Shown: positions 5,449 through 24,138 of the stretch, in pieces
Layout: every line of letters starts with the position of its first letter
Position numbering within the stretch: position 1 is the first letter of the stretch
Source of the DNA: Modestobacter excelsi
GTDB lineage: Bacteria > Actinomycetota > Actinomycetes > Mycobacteriales > Geodermatophilaceae
Assembly (NCBI RefSeq): GCF_005930495.1
Contig: NZ_SJEX01000051.1
Location: 1 to 36,503 of the forward strand
Reading direction: 5' to 3'
Length of the DNA stretch: 36,503 nt
Notes under the pieces: model-generated
Told to the model about the DNA's origin: nothing
What the model saw: the letters and a program-made list of their open reading frames with translations, nothing else
Databases searched by the model: none
Position numbers and translations under genes: made by a program

Positions 5449-6441
5449 ATGGCGGTGCAGGGTGCGGTGCGCAGCACGCGCGAGATCGAGCGGGCGGTGG
5501 TGACCGGCGGCGCCGGCTTCCTGGGCTCCCACCTGTGCGAGCAGCTGCTCGACCGCGGCGTCGAGGTCGTCTGCCTGGACAACTTCCTCACCGGCTCGCC
5601 GGAGAACGTGCTGCACCTGATGGAGCACCCGGGCTTCCGGCTGGTCCGCTGCGACGTCACCGACTACGTGCACGTGCCCGGCCCGGTCGACCTGGTGCTG
5701 CACTTCGCGTCCCCGGCGAGCCCGCTGGACTACCTGAGGATGCCGATCGAGACCCTCAAGGTCGGCAGCTTGGGCACGCTGCACACCCTCGGCCTGGCCA
5801 AGGAGAAGGGCGCCCGCTACCTGCTCGCCTCGACCTCGGAGGTCTACGGCGACCCGCTGGAGCACCCGCAGCGCGAGGAGTACTGGGGCAACGTCAACCC
5901 GGTCGGCCCGCGCGGCGTCTACGACGAGGCCAAGCGGTTCAGCGAGGCGCTGACCACCGCGTACCGCACCTCGCAGGGCACCGACACCGCGATCGTCCGG
6001 ATCTTCAACACCTACGGCCCGCGGATGCGCCCCAACGACGGCCGGGCCATCCCCGCCTTCGTCGGCCAGGCGCTCGCCGGCGAGCCGCTGACCGTCGCCG
6101 GGGACGGCTCGCAGACCCGCTCGATCTGCTACGTCGACGACACCGTGCGCGGCATCCTCGCGCTCGCCTTCTCCACCGAGACCGGCCCGATGAACATCGG
6201 CAACCCCGACGAGCTGTCCATGCTCGAGCTGGCCCGCTGGATCGTGGAGCTGACCGGCTCGTCGTCGGAGATCGGCTTCATCGACCTGCCGGTCGACGAC
6301 CCCAAGGTGCGCCGCCCGGACACCACCGCCGCCGAGACGGCGCTGGGCTGGCGCCCGACGGTGACCTCCGAGGAGGGGCTCCGGAACACGGTCGCCTGGT
6401 TCGCCGCCCAGCGCGAGGCGGGCAGCACCCGCGCCAGCTGA
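5449..6441 (+). CDS. UDP-glucuronate decarboxylase-like NAD-dependent SDR
   Basis: 330 residues, an extended short-chain dehydrogenase. The cofactor motif [10 protein letters not shown] is at residues 20-29. [10 protein letters not shown] near residues 127-136, [14 protein letters not shown] (catalytic YxxxK near 158-162) and [13 protein letters not shown] follow. This pattern fits UDP-xylose synthase, which makes UDP-xylose from UDP-glucuronate; other NDP-sugar epimerases/dehydratases share the fold. The ATG at 5449 is chosen because family members start ~20 residues before the glycine motif; AGCAGGG upstream is a weak ribosome-binding site. It may feed sugar nucleotides to the glycosyltransferases at 8224-15954, though it is on the other strand and could alternatively act on NDP-heptose (inference). 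Confidence 0.82.
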
Positions 6442-6490: not shown

Positions 6491-6571
6491 TCCGGCCGAC
6501 CGATGCCCGGGAAGCCGCGCTCCGGCGCGCCCCTGGCACAGCACAGGGCTCGAACACGACGGAGAAGCCAG

Positions 6572-8227
6572 ATGGGGCGGCACGCCTCCACACCGTCCCG
6601 CTCCAGGATCGCCGGCCGGCCCGCGCTGCTCGGCGGCCTGGCCGTCCTGCTGATCGCGGCAATCGGCCTCGGCCTGGTCTGGTGGCGGTCCGGGGACGAC
6701 GACGCCGAGGCGGCCGACTGCAGCGACCGGCAGACCGTGCGGGTCACTGTCGCGCCCGAGGTCGGCCCGCTGGTGGAGCGGCTGCTGTCCCGGCCGGAGC
6801 CGCTCGGCGGCGGCGCCTGCGCCGTGGCCGAGGTGACCGCCGAGGAACCGCTGCAGACCCTGGCGTCGGTCGGGGCGCTGGACGCCGCCGCCCTCCCGCA
6901 GGTGTGGGTGCCCGACTCCTCGCTGTGGACCGCCCGCGCCGGCGGTGCCGACGTGCAGGCCGCCGGCTCGCTGGCCTCCTCACCGCTGGTGCTGGCCACC
7001 AGCCGCGCGGCAGCCGACCAGCTGGGGTGGACCAGCACGCCGCCCACCTGGGGTCAGGCGCTCGGCACCGGCCGCCCGCTCGCCGTCCCCGACCTGACCG
7101 CGAGCGCCGAGGGACTGTCCGCGCTGGCCGCCGTCCGGCAGTCGCTGGGTGGCGGCGCGGACGCCGACAACGCCGTCGTGGCGGCGGTGCTCGCCGCCGG
7201 CCGCGGGGAGGTCCCCTCCCCCGCCGACGCGCTGACGGCCGGCACCGAGGGCGGCGCCGACGCGCCGCTGGTGCCGGTGAGCGAGCAGGAGGTGCTGGCG
7301 GCCAACACCGCGGCCGGCTCGGACTCGCTGGTCGCGGTCTACCCCAGCGACGGCTCGCCGTCCCTCGACTACCCGGTGCTGCAGGTCGGCGCGGCCGACG
7401 CCGCCCACCCGGAGGCGGTGGACGCCGTCGTGCGGACCCTGACCGCCGCCTCGGCCGCCACCCAGGTGCGCGCCGCCGGCTTCCGCGACCAGGAGGGCAG
7501 CGCTCCCGAGGGCGCCGGGCCGGACACCGGGGTGCAGGAGGCGGCGCCCGCGTCGCTGGAGCTGGACGCCGCCGCACTGCAGGGACTGCTCGGGCGGTTG
7601 TCCAGCCTGGCCACGCCGTCCCGGCTGCTGACCGTCGTCGACGTCTCCACCTCGATGAGCGCCCCGGCCGGCGACGGGACCCGGGCGACCCTGGCCCGGG
7701 ACGCGACCAAGAGCGCGCTGACCCTGCTGCCGGACTCCTACTCCGGGGGCGTCTGGGCGTTCGCCTACCGGCTCGACGGCGACCGGGACTACGTGGAGCT
7801 GGCCCCGCTCCGCCAGTTCGGCGCCGACGCCGGCGGCCAGACCCAGCGCGAGCTGATCGACGGGCAGTTCGACAGCCTGCCCGGCCTGCTCTCCCCCGGC
7901 GGCACCGGGCTGTACGACACCACGCTGGCCGCCGTCCGCGCCGCCCAGAACGCCTACGACCCCGCCTCGGTGAACAGCGTCGTCCTCATCACCGACGGCG
8001 AGAACGACGACGACACCGGCATCGGCCTCGACGAGCTGCTCAGCACGTTGCGGGCCGAGGCCGACCCGGACCGGCCGGTGAAGGTCGTCGGGATCGCGCT
8101 CGGCCCGGACGCCGACCAGGGGGCGCTGCAGCAGATCGCGGACGCCACCGGCGGCGCCGCCTACGCGGCACTCGACCCGGAGGACCTGCAGAGCGTGCTC
8201 TTCGACGCCATCCGCCGCCGCAGCTAG
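6572..8227 (+). CDS. Membrane-anchored substrate-binding and VWA domain protein
   Basis: 551 residues. A transmembrane/signal-anchor segment (LLGGLAVLLIAAIGLGLVWW) lies at about residues 17-36. Residues ~50-330 form a type-II periplasmic binding-protein fold similar to bacterial solute-binding proteins, with a WGQALGTGRPLAVPD segment. Residues ~350-551 form a von Willebrand A domain. Its MIDAS metal site is visible as DVSTSMS near residue 356, a later Thr in GGTGLYDTT, and the Asp of ITDGEND. The module is extracytoplasmic and probably binds a ligand or partner in a metal-dependent way. GGAGAA precedes the ATG; an upstream ATG at 6503 is in frame but lacks a site. Its stop shares CTAG with the convergent GT9 gene. 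Confidence 0.85.
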   Translation: MGRHASTPSRSRIAGRPALLGGLAVLLIAAIGLGLVWWRSGDDDAEAADCSDRQTVRVTVAPEVGPLVERLLSRPEPLGGGACAVAEVTAEEPLQTLASVGALDAAALPQVWVPDSSLWTARAGGADVQAAGSLASSPLVLATSRAAADQLGWTSTPPTWGQALGTGRPLAVPDLTASAEGLSALAAVRQSLGGGADADNAVVAAVLAAGRGEVPSPADALTAGTEGGADAPLVPVSEQEVLAANTAAGSDSLVAVYPSDGSPSLDYPVLQVGAADAAHPEAVDAVVRTLTAASAATQVRAAGFRDQEGSAPEGAGPDTGVQEAAPASLELDAAALQGLLGRLSSLATPSRLLTVVDVSTSMSAPAGDGTRATLARDATKSALTLLPDSYSGGVWAFAYRLDGDRDYVELAPLRQFGADAGGQTQRELIDGQFDSLPGLLSPGGTGLYDTTLAAVRAAQNAYDPASVNSVVLITDGENDDDTGIGLDELLSTLRAEADPDRPVKVVGIALGPDADQGALQQIADATGGAAYAALDPEDLQSVLFDAIRRRS

Positions 8228-9216
8228 GAGGAGGACAGCAGCTGGTCGAGGGCTGCGGTCACCTCGGCGACGGTGATCCGGTCGAGCGCGGGGTCCAGCG
8301 TCGTCCCCCAGGGGTCGCCGGTGCCGTCGCCGTGCCACAGGACGACGTGCTGGCGCCGCGGCGGCGGGCCCCACAGCGCCGGTGACACCGGGCCGAACAG
8401 CACCACCGAGGGACGGCGGTAGGCGCTGGCCAGGTGCGCGACCCCGGTGTCCCCGCAGACCACGACCCGGGCCGCGGCGATGACGGCGGCCAGCTCCAGC
8501 GACGTCGTCCGGCCGGCCAGCACCGCGTCCACGCCCAGCCCGGCGCCGGCCGCGACGCCGAGCGCGAGGTCCCGCTCGGCCGGCCCGCCGGTGACCACGA
8601 CCTCGAGCCCGGACGCTGCCAGGTGCGCCGCGACGGCGGAGAACCGCTCCGGCGGCCAGCGCCGCCCCGGGAAGGCCGCGCCCGGGTGGACGACGGCGAC
8701 CCCGGGAGCCGGCGGGGCCAGGTCGGGCACCGCCAGGTCCAGCGCGTCCGGGTCGCAGTCGACGTCCAGACCCTCGGCGACCAGCCGGCACCAGCGCCGG
8801 ACCTCGTGCTCTCCCGCGTACCAGGTCGGCCCGGGATAGCCGGGGCTGTCGAAGGTGAGCAGCCGCTGCGGGTGCAGGTCCGCGACGACGACGTGCGACA
8901 GCGGTCCCTTGCCGTGCAGGTCGACCGCGAGCGCGGGCGGTGGGCCGCCCCAGTCCAGCGGCTCGAGCTCGACCGCGGGCAGCACCTCGTCGACGGCGTC
9001 GATCAGCGCGGCGAGCGGCTCGAGCGCCGGGGTGGTGGCCAGCACCAGCCGGTGGTCGGGGACCGCAGCCCGGATCCCCCGGATCGCCGGCACCCCGGTC
9101 AGCAGGTCCCCCAACCCCAACGGCCGGAGGACGACGGCCGTCTCGGCTCTCGGCGCCGAAGGCGAAGCCGTTCGGTCGCTTTTCGGCGCCGAAAGTGACG
9201 AGGGGGTGGTGCTCAT
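8224..9216 (-). CDS. Glycosyltransferase family 9 (heptosyltransferase-like), copy A
   Basis: 330 residues with the GT9 layout. The N-terminal nucleotide-sugar-independent domain begins VVLRPLGLGDLLTGVPAIRG. The C-terminal domain has HPGAAFPGRRWPPERF, VVTGGPAERDLA and the GT9 signature CGDTGVAHLASAY. GT9 enzymes transfer ADP-heptose onto LPS core in Gram-negatives; here the acceptor is unknown. This is the last gene of the heptose operon, and its ATG overlaps the HldE stop (ATGA). The first ~23 residues are encoded by a palindromic CGGCGCCG repeat (9148-9194) and are probably not part of the fold. The TAG stop overlaps the convergent gene's TAG. Confidence 0.88.
   Translation of the reverse strand: MSTTPSSLSAPKSDRTASPSAPRAETAVVLRPLGLGDLLTGVPAIRGIRAAVPDHRLVLATTPALEPLAALIDAVDEVLPAVELEPLDWGGPPPALAVDLHGKGPLSHVVVADLHPQRLLTFDSPGYPGPTWYAGEHEVRRWCRLVAEGLDVDCDPDALDLAVPDLAPPAPGVAVVHPGAAFPGRRWPPERFSAVAAHLAASGLEVVVTGGPAERDLALGVAAGAGLGVDAVLAGRTTSLELAAVIAAARVVVCGDTGVAHLASAYRRPSVVLFGPVSPALWGPPPRRQHVVLWHGDGTGDPWGTTLDPALDRITVAEVTAALDQLLSSS
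9148..9194. repeat. CGGCGCCG inverted-repeat element, copy A
   Basis: TCTCGGCGCCGAA at the left and TTTCGGCGCCGAAA at the right (itself a perfect 14-bp palindrome, 9181-9194) flank an inner CGAA/TTCG pair. The element sits inside the 5' coding end of GT9 copy A and is translated in frame as LSAPKSDRTASPSAPR. A related element occupies the same place in GT9 copy B. Confidence 0.7.
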
Positions 9217-10565
9217 ACGCGGGAGCGGGCGACCAGGGCGGTGGTCGAGTGGCCGTCCAGGTAGGGCAGGACGACGGCCTGGCCGCCCCAGCTCTGCAGC
9301 ACCGCGGCCTCGGGGAGGTCCGCGCCGGCGTAGTCGCCGCCCTTGGCCCAGACGTCGGGGCGGAGCTGGTCCAGCACGGCCGACGGGGTGTCCTCGTCGA
9401 AGACGACGACCGCGTCGACGAACTCCAGCGCCTCCAGCACCCGGGCCCGGTCGGTGGCGGTGACCAGCGGCCGGGTGGGCCCCTTGAGCCGGCGGACCGA
9501 GTCGTCGGAGTTGATGCAGACCACCAGGCAGTCGCCCAGCCCGCGGGCGGCCCGCAGCGTGGCGACGTGCCCGGCGTGCAGCAGGTCGAAGCAGCCGCCG
9601 GTGGCCACGACCGTCCCGCCGGCCGCGCGGACCCGGTCCAGCAGCGCGTCGACCCCAGGAGCCGGGGCGGTCGGCGAGTCGGGGACGGCGTCCCAGGCGG
9701 TGGCCCCGCCACGGGCGACGAACGCCCCGGCGGCGGCAACCGCCGCGGTGACCGCCTCGCCGGTGACCGCGCCACCGGCCAGCGCGACGGTGACCGCGGC
9801 AGCGAAGGAGTCCCCGGCCCCGCACGGGTCGCCGCCGGTCACCCGCACCGCCGGCACGACCATCGGGGCGCCCTCGCCGTAGGACAGCAGCGCACCCCGC
9901 GAGCCCAGGGTGACCGCGACCGCGCCGACCCCCCAGCGGGCGATCAGCGCCTGCGCCCGGGCCCCGACGGCGGCCAGCCCGTCGCCGGTGATGTCCGGCC
10001 CGGCCACCCGGGCGGCCTCGGCGCCGTTGGGGGTGACCAGCCGGGTCGAGGGCACCGGGTCGGCGCCGCGCGGGTGCGGGTCCCAGACCACCGGCCCGCG
10101 GGCGGCGGACAGGGCTGCGCGGACGTCGGCGGCCGACGTCGTCCCCCGGCCGTAGTCGGCGACCAGGACGGCGGCGGCGCTGCCGATCGCGGTGGCCGCG
10201 GCCGCCGGCAGCGCGCCGAAGGTGGCGGCCGACCCGCCGGTGTCCAGCCGCGCCACCGAGTGGTCGCCCACCCGGATCCGCTGCTTGACCGGGGTGGCGC
10301 TGGTCGCCGGGATCTCGATCAGCCGGACCCGGCCGGCGAGCAGCGCCCGCAGCCGCCGGGCCCCGTCGTCGTCGCCGAGCGGGGTCACCAGGACGACGTC
10401 GGCACCGGACCGGGCGGCGATGACCGCGGCCAGCGCCGCACCACCGGGGCGCTCCCGGCGCTCGACGTCCTCGACCACCGGCACCGGCGCGTCCGGGGTC
10501 AGCCGGGACGCCGTCCCGACCAGGTCGACGTCCAGGAGCGCGTCACCGACGACGACGATGCTCAC
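9213..10565 (-). CDS. hldE: Bifunctional heptose-7-phosphate kinase / heptose-1-phosphate adenylyltransferase (HldE-like)
   Basis: 450 residues in two domains. Residues ~1-300 are a PfkB/ribokinase-type kinase with GGAALAAVIAARSGADV near the start and the anion-hole/catalytic motif CGAGDSFAAA. Residues ~315-450 are a cytidylyltransferase fold with GGCFDLLHAGHVATL (the HxGH nucleotide motif), KGPTRPLV and KGGDYAGADLPEA. In the ADP-heptose pathway the two domains phosphorylate D-glycero-D-manno-heptose-7-phosphate at C1 and, after GmhB, add AMP. The start GTG overlaps the GmhA stop by 4 nt. Its full two-domain form fits HldE rather than HddA of the GDP-heptose route. Confidence 0.92.
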   Translation of the reverse strand: MSIVVVGDALLDVDLVGTASRLTPDAPVPVVEDVERRERPGGAALAAVIAARSGADVVLVTPLGDDDGARRLRALLAGRVRLIEIPATSATPVKQRIRVGDHSVARLDTGGSAATFGALPAAAATAIGSAAAVLVADYGRGTTSAADVRAALSAARGPVVWDPHPRGADPVPSTRLVTPNGAEAARVAGPDITGDGLAAVGARAQALIARWGVGAVAVTLGSRGALLSYGEGAPMVVPAVRVTGGDPCGAGDSFAAAVTVALAGGAVTGEAVTAAVAAAGAFVARGGATAWDAVPDSPTAPAPGVDALLDRVRAAGGTVVATGGCFDLLHAGHVATLRAARGLGDCLVVCINSDDSVRRLKGPTRPLVTATDRARVLEALEFVDAVVVFDEDTPSAVLDQLRPDVWAKGGDYAGADLPEAAVLQSWGGQAVVLPYLDGHSTTALVARSRV

Positions 10566-11230
10566 TCCACCACCTGCACGTGGTTCGCCGTCGCCACCCG
10601 CGCCGGCTCGGCGAGCACCGCGGCGTCGAAGGCGGCGCAGAGCAGGTGCAGCGCGACGAGGTGGCACTCCTGCACGGTCGCCGTCCACTCCGACTCGATC
10701 GCCAGGGTCTCGTGGGCGACGGCGGCCAGCGGGTTGGGCGCCGGGCCGGTCATCGCCAGCACGGTGAGGCCGCAGTCGCGGGCACGGCGGGCGGCGGTGA
10801 CGGCGTTCGGCGACCGGCCGGAGGTCGACATCAGCACGAGCACGTCCCCGGGCCGGCCGTGCGCCTCCACCTGGCGGGCGAAGAGCTCGTCGGCCGGGTA
10901 GTCGTTGGCGATCGCAGTCAGCGACGAGGTCTCGGCGTTCAGGCAGATCGCGGAGAACGGCGGCCGGTCGGCGCGGTAGCGGCCGACCAGCTCGGCGGTG
11001 AGGTGCTGGGCCTGGGCGGCGCTGCCGCCGTTGCCCGCGGCCAGCAGCCGGCCCCGGGACTCGCCGGTCAGCACGTCGGCCAGCAGCTGGCCCCAGCGGT
11101 CGAGGGTGTCGACGGAGTCGGTGAGCCCGCGCAGCGCCACGGTCAGCGAGGTGACGTGGTCGTGGCCGGTGAGGTGGGTGCAGGTGTCCGGCGAGACGAC
11201 CTCGGTGGACCGGTTCGGGGCGGTGCTCAT
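10562..11230 (-). CDS. gmhA: Phosphoheptose isomerase-like SIS protein (GmhA)
   Basis: 222 residues, a SIS domain with GmhA hallmarks: AAGNGGSAAQAQHLTAELVG for phosphosugar binding, STSGRSPNAVTAA, and the C-terminal TVQECHLVALHLLC carrying the catalytic His/Glu pattern. GmhA converts sedoheptulose-7-phosphate to D-glycero-D-manno-heptose-7-phosphate, the first committed step. It is slightly longer than the usual ~190 residues because of a ~30-residue N-terminal extension. ATG overlaps the stop of the GT4 gene (ATGA, 11227-11230). Other SIS proteins share the fold, but the adjacent HldE and GmhB domain make the heptose role likely. Confidence 0.9.
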   Translation of the reverse strand: MSTAPNRSTEVVSPDTCTHLTGHDHVTSLTVALRGLTDSVDTLDRWGQLLADVLTGESRGRLLAAGNGGSAAQAQHLTAELVGRYRADRPPFSAICLNAETSSLTAIANDYPADELFARQVEAHGRPGDVLVLMSTSGRSPNAVTAARRARDCGLTVLAMTGPAPNPLAAVAHETLAIESEWTATVQECHLVALHLLCAAFDAAVLAEPARVATANHVQVVE

Positions 11231-12441
11231 CGGGACTCCTCCAGCAGGACGGGCGTGCGGGCAGCGAGCACCTGGCGGTAGACGGCGTCGGTGTCGGCGA
11301 CGACGCGGGACCAGCGGTAGCGGGTGCGGGCCCGCCGGACGCCGGCGGCGCCGTAGGCGGCCCGCCGCTCGTCGTCGGCGAGCAGCGCGGCGAGGGCCGC
11401 GCCGAGGGCGGCCGGGTCGCGTGGCGGCACCAGGTCGCCGGTGACCCCGTCGGCGACGCTGTCGACCAGCCCGCCGACGGCGGTGGCGACGACGGGGCGG
11501 CCGCAGGCCATCGCCTCGAGCGGCGTGATGCCGAAGGGCTCGTACCAGGGCACCGCGAGGACGACGTCGGCCGAGCGGATCCAGCCCGGCACGTCGGCCC
11601 GGGCGACCGCGCCGGCGAACACCAGCCGGTCGGCGACCCCCACCGAGTCGGCGATGCCGCGCAGCCGCTGCACCTGGGGGTCGTCGTCGACCGCGTCGAC
11701 CGGCGGCCCGCCGACGACGACGAGCTCGGCGTCCGGCACCGCGGCCAGCGCCCGGACGGCGTCCTCTTGGCCCTTGCGCTCGACCAGCCGGCCGAGCACC
11801 AGCAGCCGCGGCCGGCCCGAGCGGGCGGCGACCGGGCCGCGCGGGGTGAACTCCGCGGTGTCCACGCCGCACGGCACGATCGAGACCCGGTCGCTGGACA
11901 GGCCCAGCCGGCGCAGCTCGAACACCTCGTCGCTGCAGGTGGCCACGACGTGGTCGACCTCGGCGCACAGCCCGCGCTCGAGGTCGATGCGCTGCTCGGG
12001 CGAGGTGTCGGCGTCGCCCTGGTGACGGCGCTTGACCGAGCCGAGCGCGTGGAAGGTCTGCAGCACCGGGATGCCGAGGTCGGCGGCGGCCTGCACGGCG
12101 GCCAGCCCGCTCATCCAGAAGTGCGCGTGCACGACGTCGGGCCGGGTGACCGGCCACTCGGCGTGCAGCACGTCGGCGAAGGCGGCCATGTGCTGCAGCA
12201 GGTCGTCCTTGGGCAGCGTGGTGGCCGGGCCGGCGGTCACGTGCGCGACGTCGTAGCCGTCGGCGGTGCGCACCCGGTCGGGCAGGTCGGGGTCGTCGCG
12301 GCGGGTGTGCACGGTGACCTCGTGGCCGCGGGTCGCCAGCCCGGCGGCCAGCGCGGCGACGTGCACGTTCTGCCCGCCGGCGTCCACCCCGCCGATGGCG
12401 GCGAGGGGTGAGGCGTGTTCGCTGACCAGGTCGATCCTCAT
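11227..12441 (-). CDS. GT-B glycosyltransferase, family 4 type
   Basis: 404 residues. The N-terminus reads SEHASPLAAIGGVDAGGQNV, the acceptor-side motif of GT4 enzymes related to sucrose-phosphate synthase and MshA. The C-terminal donor domain has VLGRLVERKGQEDAVRAL and the E-x7-E region YEPFGITPLEAMACGRPVV, then GGLVDSV. The donor is a nucleotide sugar and the reaction retaining by family rule; the actual sugar is not predictable. It lies in the middle of the heptose operon with 4-nt overlaps on both sides, so it probably adds a residue to the same glycan. Confidence 0.88.
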   Translation of the reverse strand: MRIDLVSEHASPLAAIGGVDAGGQNVHVAALAAGLATRGHEVTVHTRRDDPDLPDRVRTADGYDVAHVTAGPATTLPKDDLLQHMAAFADVLHAEWPVTRPDVVHAHFWMSGLAAVQAAADLGIPVLQTFHALGSVKRRHQGDADTSPEQRIDLERGLCAEVDHVVATCSDEVFELRRLGLSSDRVSIVPCGVDTAEFTPRGPVAARSGRPRLLVLGRLVERKGQEDAVRALAAVPDAELVVVGGPPVDAVDDDPQVQRLRGIADSVGVADRLVFAGAVARADVPGWIRSADVVLAVPWYEPFGITPLEAMACGRPVVATAVGGLVDSVADGVTGDLVPPRDPAALGAALAALLADDERRAAYGAAGVRRARTRYRWSRVVADTDAVYRQVLAARTPVLLEESR

Positions 12442-13403
12442 CGGGTCACCTCTTCCAGCAACCGGTCCCAGTCGGCGAGGAACCTCGCCAGCCCGTACCG
12501 CTCCAGCGCCGCCGCGCGGGCGGCCTTGCCGGCCAGCCGGGCCGCGTCCGGCTCGTGCACGAAGGTGCGCACCGCGTCGGCCAGCCGCTGCGGCCGGGTG
12601 GAGAGCACCCCGGCCTCGGCCGGGACCGCCTCCACGGCCTCCGTGGTGGCCAGCGCGACCACCGGCATGCCCAGGTGCATCGCCTCCAGCAGCGACAGCC
12701 CGAGGGAGGTCCAGCGCACCGGGTGCACGTACACCCGGCGGCGGGCCAGCTCGGCGTGCATCGCGGCCTGCGGCAGGTCCTCGAACAGGCCGAGCCGCTC
12801 CCGGTCGAGTCCATAGCTATCGTCGAGGCCGGTCAGCCCCATGCCGAAGACGTCCAGCGGGGCCGCCGAGGACAGCAGCGGCAGCAGGTCCCCGCCGGTG
12901 TACCGGCCACGCCGGACCGGCTCGTTCACCACGATCGCGGCCCGGGCCAGCTCGCCGGTGTACCGCTCGCCGGGGTCGACGATGCCGTGCTCGATGACGA
13001 CGGTCGGCGCCGTCCCGTTGTCGTAGAACAGCTGGTTGAAGTACGTGACGTGGGCGATCGGGATCTCGGCCTGGTCGGCGAGCGGGTGCCGGGTGTTCGG
13101 CACCGCCCCGTCGGGGGCGTTGTGCTCGAGGAAGACCGCGGGCAGGTCGTGTCCCGGCTCGCGGCCCAGCCACTCCCGGACGAGCGCGAGCTCGGACACC
13201 CGCTGCAGGACGACCACGTCGACGTCCTCGGTGCGCAGCTCTTCGGGGGTCACCTCGCGCACCGACGCCGGCCAGTCCCAGGTGCGCGCCCGGCCGAGCC
13301 CGTCGGGGCCCCGATCGGGGGTGACGGGCAGCAGGTACTCGTGCGGCCCCTGGACGAACGACGTCGTCCACGACCCGTGCACGTGCCAGAGCAGGACCTT
13401 CAT
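12438..13403 (-). CDS. Glycosyltransferase (GT4-like)
   Basis: 321 residues. The start MKVLLWHVHGSWTTSFVQG is followed by FLEHNAPDGAVPNTRHPLAD and HVTYFNQLFYDNGTAPTVV. A C-terminal GT-B donor domain follows, with HPVRWTSLGLSLLEAMHLGM and PVVALATTEAVEAVP in the E-x7-E position. It is shorter than canonical GT4 enzymes and I do not recognise a characterised homologue. It overlaps both neighbours by 4 nt (ATGA at 12438-12441 and 13400-13403), which ties it to the heptose glycan. Confidence 0.82.
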   Translation of the reverse strand: MKVLLWHVHGSWTTSFVQGPHEYLLPVTPDRGPDGLGRARTWDWPASVREVTPEELRTEDVDVVVLQRVSELALVREWLGREPGHDLPAVFLEHNAPDGAVPNTRHPLADQAEIPIAHVTYFNQLFYDNGTAPTVVIEHGIVDPGERYTGELARAAIVVNEPVRRGRYTGGDLLPLLSSAAPLDVFGMGLTGLDDSYGLDRERLGLFEDLPQAAMHAELARRRVYVHPVRWTSLGLSLLEAMHLGMPVVALATTEAVEAVPAEAGVLSTRPQRLADAVRTFVHEPDAARLAGKAARAAALERYGLARFLADWDRLLEEVTR

Positions 13404-14458
13404 GCGGTGACCAGCTTCTCGACGGCGGCGACGACGTCGGCCGCGGTGACGGAGGACAGGCAGGGGTGCCCGGGCACCGGGCACTCGCGGGCGCGGGTGT
13501 CCCGGCAGGGTGCCGACTGGTCACCGAGCAGCACGGTGGGGACGCCGTAGGGCGCCCAGCGCACGGCCGGCACGACCGGGGAGAACAGCGAGACGACCGG
13601 GGTGCCGACGGCGGCGGCCAGGTGCGCCGGGCCGGTGTTGCCGACGACCACCGCCGCGGCGCCGTCGAGCAGCGCGGCCATCCCGGCCAGCGTGGTCGCC
13701 CCGCCGAGGTCGGTGCCGCGGGTGCCGGCGACGGCCGCGGTGAGCTCCCGCTCTCCAGGACCGCCGGTGACCAGCACCTGCCAGCCCGCGTCGGCGAGCG
13801 CCTCGACGGCCTCCGCACAGCGGCCGGCCGGCCAGGCGCGCGCCGGCACCGAGGCACCGGGGTGGAGCACCACGTACCCGGGCGCGCGGTCGATCGACGG
13901 CAGCGGACGACGGACGGCGAGCCGCCCGTCGTCGCCGTCGGGCAGGTCGAAGCCGGCGGCCCGGGCCAGGGAGAGCGCGCGCTCGGGCTCGGGCAGGTCG
14001 TCGTCCACCCGGTGCCGGACGTCGAGCAGCGAGCCGGGGTAGTCGACGCTGATCGCTGAGATCCGGCCGACCCCGGCGGTGCGCAGCAGCAGCGCGAGCG
14101 GCAGCGGCGACTGGTGGAAGGAGGTGCTGAGGACCGCCTCGTCGACGCCCAGCGCCCGCACCCGCTCGGTGAGCGCGGCGAGGTCGGCGGCGTCGACGGG
14201 CTGGGGGGCGCCGTCGATCCACGGGCAGTGCCAGGTCAGAAGCTCGTCCACACCCGGGAGCAGCTCGGCGGCCGCGGTGCCCTGCGGGCTGGCCAGGAAG
14301 ACCACCCGGTCCGCGGCGGCGGCCACCGCCCGGACCAGCGGGCCCTGCAGCAGGACGTCCCCGGCGTTGTCCAGCCGCGCGACCAGCACCGTCCGCCCCG
14401 GTCTCGGCGCCGGAACCGGAGCCGCTTGCGGCGCCGAGAGCGGGGAAGGGGCGCTCAC
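13400..14458 (-). CDS. Glycosyltransferase family 9 (heptosyltransferase-like), copy B
   Basis: 352 residues with GT9 features: VLVARLDNAGDVLLQGPLVR at the N-terminus, STSFHQSPLPLALLLR, HPGASVPARAWPAGR, VTGGPGERELTAAVAG and the signature GNTGPAHLAAAVGTPVV near the C-terminus. A four-Cys stretch (CRDTRARECPVPGHPCLSS) close to the end is unusual and could bind metal or form disulfides. The GTG at 14458 overlaps the upstream stop as GTGA; a tandem GTG at 14461 is also possible. The N-terminal ~20 residues come from a CGGCGCCG palindromic element like that in copy A. Confidence 0.88.
   Translation of the reverse strand: MSAPSPLSAPQAAPVPAPRPGRTVLVARLDNAGDVLLQGPLVRAVAAAADRVVFLASPQGTAAAELLPGVDELLTWHCPWIDGAPQPVDAADLAALTERVRALGVDEAVLSTSFHQSPLPLALLLRTAGVGRISAISVDYPGSLLDVRHRVDDDLPEPERALSLARAAGFDLPDGDDGRLAVRRPLPSIDRAPGYVVLHPGASVPARAWPAGRCAEAVEALADAGWQVLVTGGPGERELTAAVAGTRGTDLGGATTLAGMAALLDGAAAVVVGNTGPAHLAAAVGTPVVSLFSPVVPAVRWAPYGVPTVLLGDQSAPCRDTRARECPVPGHPCLSSVTAADVVAAVEKLVTA
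14402..14440. repeat. CGGCGCCG inverted-repeat element, copy B
   Basis: Perfect 11-bp arms (TCTCGGCGCCG at 14402-14412, complement at 14429-14439) flank a 16-nt centre. It lies in the 5' coding end of GT9 copy B and is translated as LSAPQAAPVPAPR. The arms match those of copy A at 9148-9194; the centre has diverged. Confidence 0.65.
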
Positions 14459-15954
14459 CACGAGCCGGCCAGGACATCGGCGACGGCCGCGGTCAGCGTG
14501 GCCGCCCGGTGTGGCGCGGCGGCGATCTCCTGCGGCCGGGTGACCGGCGTCGGCACGATGATCGATGCGGCACCGGCCGCCGTCGCGGCACCGACGTCGG
14601 CGCCGATGTCGCCGATGACCAGGCAGCAGGCCGGGTCGACGTCGAGCTCGGCGCAGGCCGCCGTGACCATGCCGGGCGCGGGCTTGCGGCAGTCGCAGCC
14701 GTCCTCGGCGGTGTGCGGGCAGACCTGGACGGTGTCGAACGGGCCCAGCAGCTCGGCCAGCCGGGCGTTCACCGCGTCGACCTGCGCGCGGGTGATCAGC
14801 CCGCGGCCGACGCCGGACTGGTTGCTGACCAGGCCGATCCGCACACCGCGGGCGCGCAGCTCGTCGAGCGCCTCACGGGCGCCGTCGACCGGGCGGACCT
14901 GGTCGGGGTCGCCGTTGTAGGGCACGTCGTGCACCAGGGTGCCGTCGCGGTCGAAGAGCACCAGGTCGGGCAGCCCGCGCCAGGCGGTGATCTTCCGGTG
15001 CTGCACGGCGCCGCGCAGGACGTGCCAGGTGGCCAGCGGCGGGATGACCGCGCTGGTGGCGAGCATGGTGGTGACCTCGGCGCGATCCCGCGGGCCGGGT
15101 GCGATCCTGGCCCAGGCGAACTCGGCGGTGCCGGCCAGCCAGCCGAGCGCGGCCAGCGCGGCCCCTCGGGGCCGGCCGGCCACCAGCAGGCCGGCCGCAC
15201 CGAGGGCGGCGGCGGTCACCGCGAGGTGGCGGGGACGGCGGCCGACGGCGGCGTCGGCCCGCTTCCGCCAGGTCGGCCCGTGCAGCCCTCGCATCAGCAC
15301 GTCGTCGGCGTTGCCGGCCTGCACGCGGGCGGACACCCAGCGGTCGACCGGTCGCACCGGGTGGGTGATCCACCGCCGGCCACGGGTCAGCGTCGAGCCG
15401 GTGTCCATCACCCGCAGCGCCAGGTCGGAGTCCTCGCGGAAGGCCCGCGGGAAGCGCTCGTCGAAGCCGCCGACCGCGGCGAGCGCGGCGCGGCGGTAGG
15501 CGAGATCGGCGGTGATCCAGCTGCTGGTGGCCAGCCCCGCGGTGCCGCGCTCCCAGTCGGTGGGTCGGCGGTCCTCGGGCAGCGGCACCCGGACCTGGCC
15601 CTGGGTGCCGGCCACCTCGGCCGGCAGCGCGGCGAGGTCCTCGGCGAGCCGGTCGTACCAGTCGGGGTCGGGGACGACGTCGTCGTCGAGGAAGGCGATC
15701 CAGCCGGTGCGGGCGCTGCGCCAGCCCAGGTTGCGGGCGGCCGCCGGACCGCCGCCGCCGGTGCGCACCACGCGGACCGGCGGGAGGCCCGGCCGCTCGG
15801 GGGACAGCGGCGGACCGGTCGGGCGGTCGTCGACCAGGACCAGCTCAGCGGGGCGCGGCCCGGTGCCGGCGGCGAGGGCGTCGAGCAGGACGTCCAGCGA
15901 CGGCCGGCCGATCGTCGGGACGACGACCGTGCAGTCGCGCAGGACAACCGTCAT
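14455..15954 (-). CDS. GT2 glycosyltransferase fused to GmhB-type HAD phosphatase
   Basis: 499 residues. Residues ~1-230 form a GT-A family 2 domain: VVVPTIGRPS, LVLVDDRP and the metal-binding FLDDDVVPDPDWYDRL near residue 88. A hydrophobic stretch (~235-310) may be membrane-associated. Residues ~320-499 are a HAD-IIIA phosphatase: LFDRDGTLVHD, VSNQSGVGRGLI and the GmhB zinc loop CPHTAEDGCDCRKPAPGM, then GDIGADVGAA. GmhB removes the 7-phosphate of heptose-1,7-bisphosphate. The fusion puts a pathway enzyme and a transferase in one chain at the head of the operon. ATG 15954 is preferred; 15990 is an upstream alternative. Confidence 0.9.
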   Translation of the reverse strand: MTVVLRDCTVVVPTIGRPSLDVLLDALAAGTGPRPAELVLVDDRPTGPPLSPERPGLPPVRVVRTGGGGPAAARNLGWRSARTGWIAFLDDDVVPDPDWYDRLAEDLAALPAEVAGTQGQVRVPLPEDRRPTDWERGTAGLATSSWITADLAYRRAALAAVGGFDERFPRAFREDSDLALRVMDTGSTLTRGRRWITHPVRPVDRWVSARVQAGNADDVLMRGLHGPTWRKRADAAVGRRPRHLAVTAAALGAAGLLVAGRPRGAALAALGWLAGTAEFAWARIAPGPRDRAEVTTMLATSAVIPPLATWHVLRGAVQHRKITAWRGLPDLVLFDRDGTLVHDVPYNGDPDQVRPVDGAREALDELRARGVRIGLVSNQSGVGRGLITRAQVDAVNARLAELLGPFDTVQVCPHTAEDGCDCRKPAPGMVTAACAELDVDPACCLVIGDIGADVGAATAAGAASIIVPTPVTRPQEIAAAPHRAATLTAAVADVLAGSW

Positions 15955-15974: not shown

Positions 15975-16001
15975 CCACCGGCCGAAACACTACGGGCTTT
16001 A
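15975..16001 (-). promoter_or_regulatory. Candidate sigma-28/FliA-type promoter of the heptose operon
   Basis: On the minus strand TAAA (15998-16001) is followed after exactly 15 nt by GCCGGTGG (15975-15982). The FliA consensus is TAAA-N15-GCCGATAA, so the -35 is complete and the -10 matches 5 of 8. Transcription would start about 14 nt before the ATG at 15954. The stretch is also the most AT-rich patch of the leader. Confidence 0.35.
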
Positions 16002-16072
16002 AGTTGTCCGGGGCCAGATCGGGGCGTACCCGTCCGGGTGATCGTCACGCACGTGCCTGCGGGGTTCTTTCC

Positions 16073-16585
16073 TCAGTAGCGGCGCGCGGCGGACGACACC
16101 CGGGCGAGGGCGTCGGTGACCAGGGCGGCGTCGTCCCCGAGCATGGTCAGCAGGTGCGCGACCAGGTCGTCGTGGGTCGAGCCGGCGGCGCGGACCCGCT
16201 CCCGGCCGACGTCGGTCAGGCTGGCGTGCAGCAGCCGGCGGTCGCCGCTGTGCCGCTCGCGGGTGACCAGCCCCTCGTCGACCAGCCGGTTCACCGTGCT
16301 GGTGATGCCGGGCCGGCTGAGCCCGACGGCCTCGGCCAGGTCGCCCATCGAGGCCCGCTCGTCGGGTGACTCGGCGATCCGTCGGAGCACCTCGAAGCCG
16401 GTGAGGGAGAGCCCGTGCTGGCGGTGCAACGCGGAGTCGACCCGGCGGGTGATCCGGTCGTGCACCTGGACGATGCGCAGCCAGGTCTCCGTCGCGCTCG
16501 GGCCGGCGCCGGCCAGGCCACGGACGTCCCGCGGCACGCCACGCGGCGGGGCGCCGTCGTGACGCCGGTCCAGGTGCTGGTCCAT
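16073..16585 (-). CDS. MarR-family transcriptional regulator
   Basis: 170 residues with a winged helix: LTGFEVLRRIAESPDERASM, then GDLAEAVGLSRPGITSTVNR as the recognition helix, and LVTRERHSGDRRLLHASLT as the wing with the conserved DRR. MarR proteins bind palindromes as dimers and respond to phenolic or oxidant ligands. The ATG is preceded by GTGGAACC. It follows the secreted protein gene on the same strand by 23 bp and is probably in one transcript with it; it could equally regulate the convergent-side heptose operon promoter 70 bp beyond its stop (inference). Confidence 0.9.
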   Translation of the reverse strand: MDQHLDRRHDGAPPRGVPRDVRGLAGAGPSATETWLRIVQVHDRITRRVDSALHRQHGLSLTGFEVLRRIAESPDERASMGDLAEAVGLSRPGITSTVNRLVDEGLVTRERHSGDRRLLHASLTDVGRERVRAAGSTHDDLVAHLLTMLGDDAALVTDALARVSSAARRY

Positions 16586-16608
16586 GGGGGGTTCCACGTC
16601 CTCGTCGT

Positions 16609-22707: not shown

Positions 22708-24138
22708 GTGCCCTCACCGCGCCGTTGGGACGCCGCACTGCTGGCGCGCGTCGGTCGCCTGCCGACGACGCGGGTCGACCGGTGGCTGCGCAGGCTCTCC
22801 ACCTTCGCCGACCACGGCAAGCTCTGGCTCGCCATCGGGGCGGTCCTCGGACTGAAGCCGGGCCGGTCGCGCCGCGCAGCGGTCCGCGGGATCGGGGCGC
22901 TGGCGGTGTCGAGCGCGCTGGTCAACGCGGTTCTCAAGCGGCTCTTCGGTCGTGTGCGGCCGGACCTGGCCGACGTCCACCACGCGCGTGCACTGAAGCG
23001 GTCACCGCACACCCTGTCCTTCCCGAGCGGTCACTCGGCGTCGGCGGCTGCGTTCGCGACCGGGGTCGCCCTGGAGAGCCCCGTCGCCGGGGCGCTCATC
23101 GCGCCGATCGCAGCGGGCGTCGGCTACTCGCGGGTGCACGTCGGCGTGCACTACCCGGGCGACGTCGCCGCCGGCATGGCCGTCGGGAGCGCGGTGGCGC
23201 TGGCCACCCAGCGGTGGTGGCGGGTGCGGCCGGTCGAGCCCGCGCGGGTGTGGCAGGCCTGGGACGCCCCGGCGCTGCCGGACGGCGAGGGGCTGGTGGT
23301 CGCGGTCAACCCGCGGTCCGGCCGCGAGGACTACGACCCGGCCGCCGACATCCGGGAGCTGCTGCCCCGCGCCGAGGTGCTGGAGCTGCGTGCGGACGCG
23401 GGCGTGGCTGAGCTGCTCGGCGAGGCCGCGCGGTCGGGGCGCGCCCGGGCACTGGGCGTGGCCGGCGGCGACGGCAGCGTCGCGGCAGCTGCGGCCGTCG
23501 CGCTGGAGTTCGGACTGCCGCTGGCCGTCGTTCCCGCGGGAACGCTGAACCACTTCGCACGCGACCTGGGCGTGGCGACGCCGCCGGAGGCCGCGGCAGC
23601 CGTGGTGAGCGGGGCGGCCGTGCAGGTGGACGTGGCCGAGGTGAACGGGGTGCCGTTCCTGAACACCGCGTCGATCGGTTCGTACCCGGAGATGGTGCGA
23701 CGCCGGGACCGGCTCAGCGGGCGGATGGGCAAGTGGGCGGCGCTGACGGTGGCGGCGGCGCAGGTGCTGCGGCACGGGTCGCCGGTGGAGCTGGAGCTGA
23801 ACCAACGGCGGGTCTCGGCGTGGATCCTGTTCATCGGCAACGGCTGCTACGTGCCGCGCGGGCTGTCGCCGGCGTGGCGGCCGCGGCTGGAGGACGGGTT
23901 GCTGGACGTGCAGTACCTGCGGGCCGACCTGCGGTTCGGGCGCACCCGGGCGGTGCTGGCGACGCTGCTGGGGGTCGGGGACCACAGCCGGTCCCACGCG
24001 GAGTTCCAGGCGTCGGAGCTGCGGGTGCGGTCGCTGTCCGGGCCGCAGCAGGTGGCGTACGACGGGGAGACCGGGGAGACGACGACGGAGTTCGTCTTCC
24101 GCAAGCGCGAGCGGCTGACCATCTACTGCTCCCGGTGA
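22708..24138 (+). CDS. PAP2 phosphatase / diacylglycerol-kinase-like fusion protein
   Basis: 476 residues. Residues ~1-175 are a PAP2 membrane phosphatase: motif 1 KRLFGRVRP, motif 2 FPSGHSAS, motif 3 YSRVHVGVHYPGD. Residues ~190-476 are a lipid-kinase (DAGK/YegS) fold: VAVNPRSGRED, VAGGDGSVAAAA, VPAGTLNHFARDLG and FLNTASIGSYPEMV. The pair could dephosphorylate and rephosphorylate lipids such as phosphatidic acid/diacylglycerol or polyprenyl phosphates at the membrane. The architecture is known in actinobacteria. Only a few hydrophobic helices are obvious in the PAP2 half. Confidence 0.92.
   Translation: MPSPRRWDAALLARVGRLPTTRVDRWLRRLSTFADHGKLWLAIGAVLGLKPGRSRRAAVRGIGALAVSSALVNAVLKRLFGRVRPDLADVHHARALKRSPHTLSFPSGHSASAAAFATGVALESPVAGALIAPIAAGVGYSRVHVGVHYPGDVAAGMAVGSAVALATQRWWRVRPVEPARVWQAWDAPALPDGEGLVVAVNPRSGREDYDPAADIRELLPRAEVLELRADAGVAELLGEAARSGRARALGVAGGDGSVAAAAAVALEFGLPLAVVPAGTLNHFARDLGVATPPEAAAAVVSGAAVQVDVAEVNGVPFLNTASIGSYPEMVRRRDRLSGRMGKWAALTVAAAQVLRHGSPVELELNQRRVSAWILFIGNGCYVPRGLSPAWRPRLEDGLLDVQYLRADLRFGRTRAVLATLLGVGDHSRSHAEFQASELRVRSLSGPQQVAYDGETGETTTEFVFRKRERLTIYCSR

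Follow-up and report, generated by a model that had tools for sequence, protein, structure and literature searches.

Among described actinobacterial systems, the closest to the locus examined here is the cwg operon of Streptomyces coelicolor, for which Hong et al. 2002 is reportedly the work to cite. In the sections that deal with it, two later papers describe SCO6179-6190 as a 12-gene operon that is a target of sigma-E and is predicted to function in cell wall glycan synthesis (PMC6767563, PMC5839063). In one of the two, those sections list SCO6186 (cwgH) as a "putative phosphoheptose isomerase" and SCO6187 (cwgI) as a "putative bifunctional synthase/transferase"; SCO6178 is called a "putative deacetylase" in the relevant part of one paper, and another names it a glycoside hydrolase. 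Here we compare with this system a window of 36,503 nucleotides (positions 1 to 36,503 of contig NZ_SJEX01000051.1, assembly GCF_005930495.1) from the actinobacterium Modestobacter excelsi, a member of the Geodermatophilaceae, whose minus strand carries at 8224-15954 an operon for heptose activation and glycosyl transfer. From homology and gene order we identify this operon as the Geodermatophilaceae version of cwg, and we put at roughly three in four the probability that it makes an envelope glycan based on nucleoside diphosphate (NDP)-heptose, and not lipopolysaccharide (LPS).

The published 29-base cwg promoter was searched in 392 Streptomyces genomes, of which seven have a match with at most two mismatches and one an exact match. 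In the latter genome (8.63 Mb; locus L121), the promoter lies 147 bp ahead of a gene for UDP-glucuronate decarboxylase (uridine diphosphate (UDP)-xylose synthase, UXS), the same distance as in print, and open reading frames (ORFs) together with Pfam assignments give a 12-gene operon that begins with this gene: UXS-CarbT-GT2-GmhB-GT9a-GTx-GT4-GmhA-HldE-GT9b-GT2-GT2, where CarbT is a carbamoyltransferase and GT denotes a glycosyltransferase. The operon is adjoined by a divergent polysaccharide deacetylase, fitting SCO6178, and it keeps the order of the window's seven operon proteins, with 53-72% identity in the individual aligned segments. In its exact promoter, 12-gene content, internal order and deacetylase neighbor, L121 fits the description of SCO6178-6190, and we assign the operon of the window as an ortholog of cwg. 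The sequence-only reading of this DNA, made before any database search, had proposed an undescribed glycan; the system is in fact known and widespread, its role in making a cell wall glycan being a prediction in print.

To place the operon among its relatives we used 80 loci, which are the best 80 of at least 580 confirmed HldE matches and are biased towards the window. Fifty-nine of them are assessable, with at least 8 kb upstream and at least 4 kb downstream of HldE (21 loci with shorter flanks were excluded), and a domain counted as present if it scored above a bit threshold at any place in the locus, irrespective of order. Seven core domains (GmhB, GT9a, GTx, GT4, GmhA and both HldE domains) occur in 52 of the 59, all nine domains in 43 and UXS in 44. 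The module is not uniform, since in four loci from Streptomyces and Actinoallomurus (L192, L200, L209, L210) GmhB or the GT9s are not found nearby. In a tally compiled from per-locus gene labels, 51 loci could be assessed for the arrangement of GT2 and GmhB: 34 have the fused form and 17 have separate genes (16 from Streptomyces, the other being L147, which contains 131 N). At E<=1e-40, HldE is present in 103 of 200 genomes of the host order (101 of the cwg type) and in 45 of 396 genomes of the phylum; these genome searches scored the top 4-10 first-look candidates per genome, and misses may be undercounts. The host genome (5.26 Mb) has one full-length HldE, plus two partial matches elsewhere at 35-37%, and three GT9s in all. 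The grouping of these genes is not a matter of chance, because the single full-length HldE and two of the three GT9s of the host sit in this operon and the core recurs in the relatives. The third GT9 lies on a 7.6-kb contig (C35; L084:6550) with a GT4-like stretch, possibly another glycan cluster.

The operon consists of seven ORFs that, in the ORF map, overlap end to start by 4 bp each, or 7 bp for the first pair; from 5' to 3' they encode a GT2-GmhB fusion, GT9a, GTx, GT4, GmhA, HldE and GT9b (Table 1), with five GT domains in all. Every gene that had been named from the letters alone is there, and the Pfam and NCBIfam scans concur on the assignments.

Table 1. Predicted features of the cwg-type operon and its surroundings in the window.
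Feature	Position	Strand	Basis
GT2 glycosyltransferase + GmhB-type HAD phosphatase fusion, 499 aa; cwgC+cwgD equivalent	14455..15954	-	Pfam/NCBIfam, GmhB structures, invariant residues, model
GT9a, heptosyltransferase-like; cwgE equivalent; GTG start assumed	13400..14461	-	Glyco_transf_9 6e-26, solved LPS heptosyltransferase matches
GTx, short GT-B glycosyltransferase; cwgF equivalent	12438..13403	-	Glycos_transf_1 40.5 bits, model
GT4 glycosyltransferase, MshA/sucrose-phosphate-synthase-like; cwgG equivalent	11227..12441	-	Pfam/NCBIfam, solved relatives
GmhA, sedoheptulose-7-phosphate isomerase-like SIS protein, 222 aa; cwgH equivalent	10562..11230	-	SIS_2, 1tk9 match
HldE, heptose-7-phosphate kinase + heptose-1-phosphate nucleotidyltransferase; cwgI equivalent	9213..10565	-	PfkB + CTP_transf_like, TIGR02199
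GT9b, heptosyltransferase-like; cwgJ equivalent	8224..9216	-	Glyco_transf_9 8e-27, solved LPS heptosyltransferase matches
UDP-glucuronate decarboxylase (UXS); cwgA equivalent; start approximate	5452..6441	+	E 6.7e-103 to 2b69
Conserved 19-bp motif CTTNRAGCCCGTAGTGTTT, possible promoter/regulator site	15985..16003	-	30 bp ahead of operon start codon

For the residues conserved in these proteins, we take the catalytic roles from what is known of the families. In 18 aligned GT2-GmhB fusions, DDD 90-92, E174/D175, D335/D337 and C412/H414/C420/C422 are invariant, and solved GmhB structures are among the matches of the GmhB half. Both GT9s match solved LPS heptosyltransferases and share a (D/N)TGxAH motif (17 aligned sequences each); D35, N275, T276 and H280 are invariant in GT9a and T257, G258 and H261 in GT9b, where D37 and D256 are conserved in at least 90%. 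GmhA aligns with the phosphoheptose isomerase 1tk9 (E 2e-35) and keeps the AELxGRY and QExH segments. The kinase GAGD (249-252) and nucleotidyltransferase HxGH (330-333) motifs of HldE are invariant or nearly so among 12 aligned HldEs, and the protein scores 185.7 bits against TIGR02199, above the 181.5 cut-off. Structural models were made of GTx and of the fusion. That of GTx (predicted local distance difference test, pLDDT, 93.2) has a GT-B fold, for which the best PDB hits are PimB', BshA and a mannosyltransferase from mycobacteria. That of the fusion (pLDDT 90.7) has a GT-A-like domain, three long helices at 240-318 and a HAD domain that resembles GmhB structures; as the hydrophobicity of the helices is no more than moderate, their insertion into the membrane is a guess.

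The isomer of the heptose can be approached through the epimerase HldD. At E<=1e-45, a cut-off that Escherichia coli and Caulobacter controls exceed, the search for HldD gave no match in any of the 200 genomes sampled from the order, and the best match in the host reaches 116 bits, against a TIGR02197 cut-off of 274.6. The sequence-only reading had noticed that no HldD is present, had considered the D,D-form as a possible donor and had suggested as an alternative that a short-chain dehydrogenase/reductase (SDR) at 5449 or a distant gene might supply the epimerase. The SDR is a real gene, but it was rejected as HldD: it scores 59 bits against TIGR02197, and its best solved match is UDP-glucuronate decarboxylase 1 (2b69). 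Since no HldD was found and the nearby SDR is predicted to be a UDP-glucuronate decarboxylase, D-glycero-D-manno-heptose is the likely donor, barring a non-homologous epimerase.

The nucleotide is a separate matter. In the parts of the literature that treat nucleotide choice, Arg at position five of an (F/L)XXGRSTT motif is linked to the use of several nucleoside triphosphates (PMC11573728), while a commentary, in its remarks on the motif, considers it not strictly required (PMC11461863). HldE of the window has YLDGHSTT near its C-terminus, with His at this position. His is found in all 21 close loci (L141-L160 and L171; HldE at least 78% identical), 20 of which are labeled Geodermatophilaceae while L150 is titled as an unverified Bacillus; L172, from a Geodermatophilaceae metagenome-assembled genome with HldE at 55%, has Arg. 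Over the 79 of 80 relatives' loci that could be scored, Arg occurs in 53, His in 25 and Lys in one; in a second, self-chosen set of loci, which is not a random sample, the 57 of 58 scored have Arg (34), His (14), Tyr (seven), Gln (one) and Glu (one). The difference between His and Arg may point to different nucleotide use. Of the "complete ADP type" pathway proposed from the letters, then, the complete set of four activities alongside GT9s in a Gram-positive cell stands, whereas specificity for adenosine diphosphate (ADP) was an inference, the residue at the published specificity position being His.

The second gene of cwg is the carbamoyltransferase. None of the 21 close loci contains it, but of the remaining loci 43 could be assessed and 31 of these do. 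The host has a sole member of this family, on another contig (C162), 71% identical to the Streptomyces protein over 545 residues. When carbamoyltransferase matches (E<=1e-180) were cross-tabulated with cwg-type HldE in the 200 genomes of the order, leaving out two genomes with HldE matches of only 40-43% (G038, G083), 78 had both, 23 HldE only, three the carbamoyltransferase only and 96 neither; 78 of the 81 genomes with a carbamoyltransferase thus have cwg-type HldE, and Fisher's exact test gives p 2e-30, a value that ignores shared ancestry. In the host family, 24 of 28 sampled genomes have both, four have neither and none is discordant. The unlinked carbamoyltransferase tracks the operon. 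WapO, a putative carbamoyltransferase, is credited in the relevant part of one paper with the carbamoyl group on the inner-core heptose of Pseudomonas LPS (PMC8005017), and by analogy a carbamoylated heptose could be the product here as well. With the last cwg GT2 as query, two tandem matches lie on host contig C104, at 65% and 46%, and a single site on C151 matches at 47%; the C104 46% and C151 47% matches contain a stop, and stops also lie inside some matches of the carbamoyltransferase search.

Gene content and order, homology to cwg, the absence of HldD and LpxC matches and the joint occurrence of the carbamoyltransferase are read directly from the sequence. The pathway that we infer, from its catalytic steps to the heptose isomer, nucleotide, acceptor, export and location, would run as follows. 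GmhA would isomerize sedoheptulose-7-phosphate, the kinase domain of HldE would form the 1,7-bisphosphate, the GmhB domain would remove the 7-phosphate and the nucleotidyltransferase domain of HldE would yield an NDP-heptose, most likely in the D-glycero-D-manno form. At the inner face of the membrane, an acceptor would then receive heptose from the two GT9s and other sugars from GT2, GT4 and GTx; the nearby UXS could supply UDP-xylose, and the unlinked carbamoyltransferase would probably carbamoylate the glycan, possibly on heptose, the product being an envelope glycan. In this respect the earlier proposal of a surface glycan pathway appears right. A fuller picture, which we offer as tentative and hold at less than even odds, is an oligosaccharide of the envelope as a counterpart of the LPS inner core, with D,D-type heptoses (or another isomer, chosen by a kinase with Leu45, on which see below) placed by the two GT9s, carbamoylated by the co-inherited carbamoyltransferase and accompanied by xylose; the cwg system, which responds to vancomycin, would make this glycan and would be lost and regained as one module.

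Other products would use much of the same enzymology. HldE and the GT9s are related to enzymes of LPS heptose addition, as would be expected of a true LPS core pathway or of contaminating DNA; however, LpxC has no match in the host genome (four positive controls), making LPS very unlikely, the most remote of the readings weighed here. Contamination was likewise rejected: the closest HldE orthologs come from Geodermatophilaceae bacterium URHA0031 (94%) and three Modestobacter records (86-88%), and the GC content of the window is 68-78% per 2-kb step. NDP-heptoses also serve in the heptosylation of proteins in E. coli, as noted in part of one commentary (PMC11461863), and a glycoprotein in place of a wall polymer or glycolipid could be imagined; several stepwise GTs together with UXS point instead to an oligosaccharide, and we regard this alternative as distinctly unlikely. 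We find it more improbable still that the product is a soluble glycoside or other natural product, akin to the heptose-containing antibiotics septacidin and hygromycin B known from Streptomyces. Against that stand the recurrence of the core across many genera, the five GT domains and the neighboring ORFs, of which those scanned (not every ORF was) encode UXS, a VWA-like protein and a regulator of the MarR family, while the Streptomyces copy is placed in a cell-envelope stress regulon in the pertinent section of PMC6767563.

Several points weigh against an NDP-heptose-based envelope glycan. The sugars that GT9 proteins can transfer are not confined to heptose. Flippase, polymerase and ligase genes did not turn up, in scans that were not aimed at them. 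The co-occurrence of carbamoyltransferase and HldE carries the limit of shared ancestry given above, and 23 of 101 genomes with cwg-type HldE (13 of them in genus g21) have no carbamoyltransferase at E<=1e-180, three having the reverse. The function of cwg is itself a prediction where PMC6767563 discusses it, and no report of its product was found in those portions of the open-access literature on actinobacterial or Geodermatophilaceae wall heptose, septacidin, hldE and gmhA of Streptomyces, cwg (with SCO6185-6190) and carbamoyl heptose that were consulted. All four pathway domain types (isomerase, kinase, phosphatase and nucleotidyltransferase) are present with catalytic motifs, yet three of the four miss their NCBIfam equivalog cut-offs (TIGR02198 kinase, 140 of 345 bits; TIGR00441 GmhA, 151 of 209; PRK08942 GmhB, 119 of 178), and we therefore class the kinase, GmhA and GmhB as divergent members of their families. 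Finally, Leu45 of HldE occupies the position of the Asn of GGAAN in the solved heptose-7-phosphate kinase 4e84. The sequence-only reading had named a mismatch of active-site residues with the family as grounds for refuting it; such a mismatch occurs at this one kinase position, the other motifs examined being intact.

This substitution marks a subfamily. When the best HldE of each of the 80 loci is taken, 77 have Leu at position 45, two have Ala (gap cases with GGAGL), one has Met and none has Asn, whereas all 11 further HldE matches within these loci have Asn. Because Leu45 replaces an Asn of the PfkB family, we do not assign the operon to the canonical ADP-heptose pathway and claim only a similar mode of working. 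It is conceivable, if on balance unlikely, that Leu45-type HldE yields another heptose isomer or nucleotide. The consistent absence of Asn and the low kinase score would agree with such a change, as would the presence of both HldE types within single loci of Arthrobacter and Microbacteriaceae, but the GmhA and GmhB partners are kept, HldE retains a (R)LxPDAPVPV-like motif, the GAGD motif and a conserved nucleotidyltransferase domain, and TIGR02199 is above its cut-off in the window. In nine loci of these two groups (L175, L183, L187, L194, L196, L198, L205, L211, L214), the cwg-type HldE is followed downstream by either another nucleotidyltransferase or an entire HldE of the canonical type; this pairing suggests two non-redundant NDP-sugars. 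Seven loci in other genomes of the order or phylum (L070-L075, L138) carry a second HldE class, with best stretches about 34-55% identical and no GmhA match, that may belong to other pathways.

The 19-bp motif upstream of the operon is conserved across Geodermatophilaceae genera and occurs in 16 of the 21 close loci. Of the five loci without it, three (L144, L149, L150) are on contigs from which the first operon gene is missing. The motif could represent a promoter in which TAGTGT serves as the -10 element. A regulon was rejected, the host genome having a single copy at up to two mismatches. A sigma-E-like promoter was also rejected for the window, where a single regular-expression scan for AAC-N15-18-(C)GTC found no site within 220 bp; one of 12 relatives scanned has one. 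Such a promoter is known for the S. coelicolor copy, and we do not treat it as a defining trait of cwg. Directly 5' of the operon, on the same strand, lies a MarR-family regulator (16073-16597), and on the opposite strand a VWA-like protein below Pfam cut-offs (6503-8227) adjoins the operon in 20 of the 21 close loci. Farther away, at 22708-24138, the window encodes a protein that joins a PAP2 phosphatase with the catalytic domain of a diacylglycerol kinase.

The present comparison adds the assignment to cwg, the finding that HldD is lacking, a corrected function for the SDR, a carbamoyltransferase inherited together with the operon and a kinase subfamily marked by Leu45. Gram-positive producers of NDP-heptoses matter beyond LPS because these compounds are described, in the part of PMC11573728 concerned with them, as ligands of the animal receptor ALPK1. 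Comparison with known systems also gives concrete chemistry to seek in the wall or a glycolipid, namely D,D-heptose, carbamoyl groups and xylose.

Mycobacteria and Aneurinibacillus have a guanosine diphosphate (GDP)-heptose route of GmhA, GmhB and HddA, with which the window has its isomerase and phosphatase types in common, whereas HldE stands in place of a separate kinase and guanylyltransferase. Synthesis of NDP-heptose in actinobacteria is also reportedly carried out by the tridomain NDP-heptose synthetases of Tang et al. 2022; in the window, by contrast, GmhA is a separate ORF of 222 aa and HldE is a didomain protein. With the Gram-negative pathway of GmhA, HldE, GmhB, HldD and LPS heptosyltransferases, the operon has every enzyme class in common except HldD, and the motifs examined are conserved apart from the kinase Asn; it differs in its divergent Leu45 kinase, in the His at the published nucleotide-specificity position and in a host in which neither HldD nor LpxC was found. 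The LPS inner core of Pseudomonas offers a parallel in its two heptosyltransferases and carbamoyltransferase (WapO, as presented in part of PMC8005017), although the envelope is different, carbamoylation of heptose would be an extrapolation here and the likeness to WapO is one of described function. From cwg of S. coelicolor the operon differs in the fusion of GT2 and GmhB, in UXS on the opposite strand, in the unlinked carbamoyltransferase and last GT2, which leave linkage only partial, and in having a different conserved motif of 19 bp and no sigma-E-like promoter found within 220 bp. Nine of the 12 cwg functions are found in the window, eight of them (seven ORFs) in cwg order, and elsewhere in the host genome, on other contigs, lie homologs of the carbamoyltransferase and of the last GT2.

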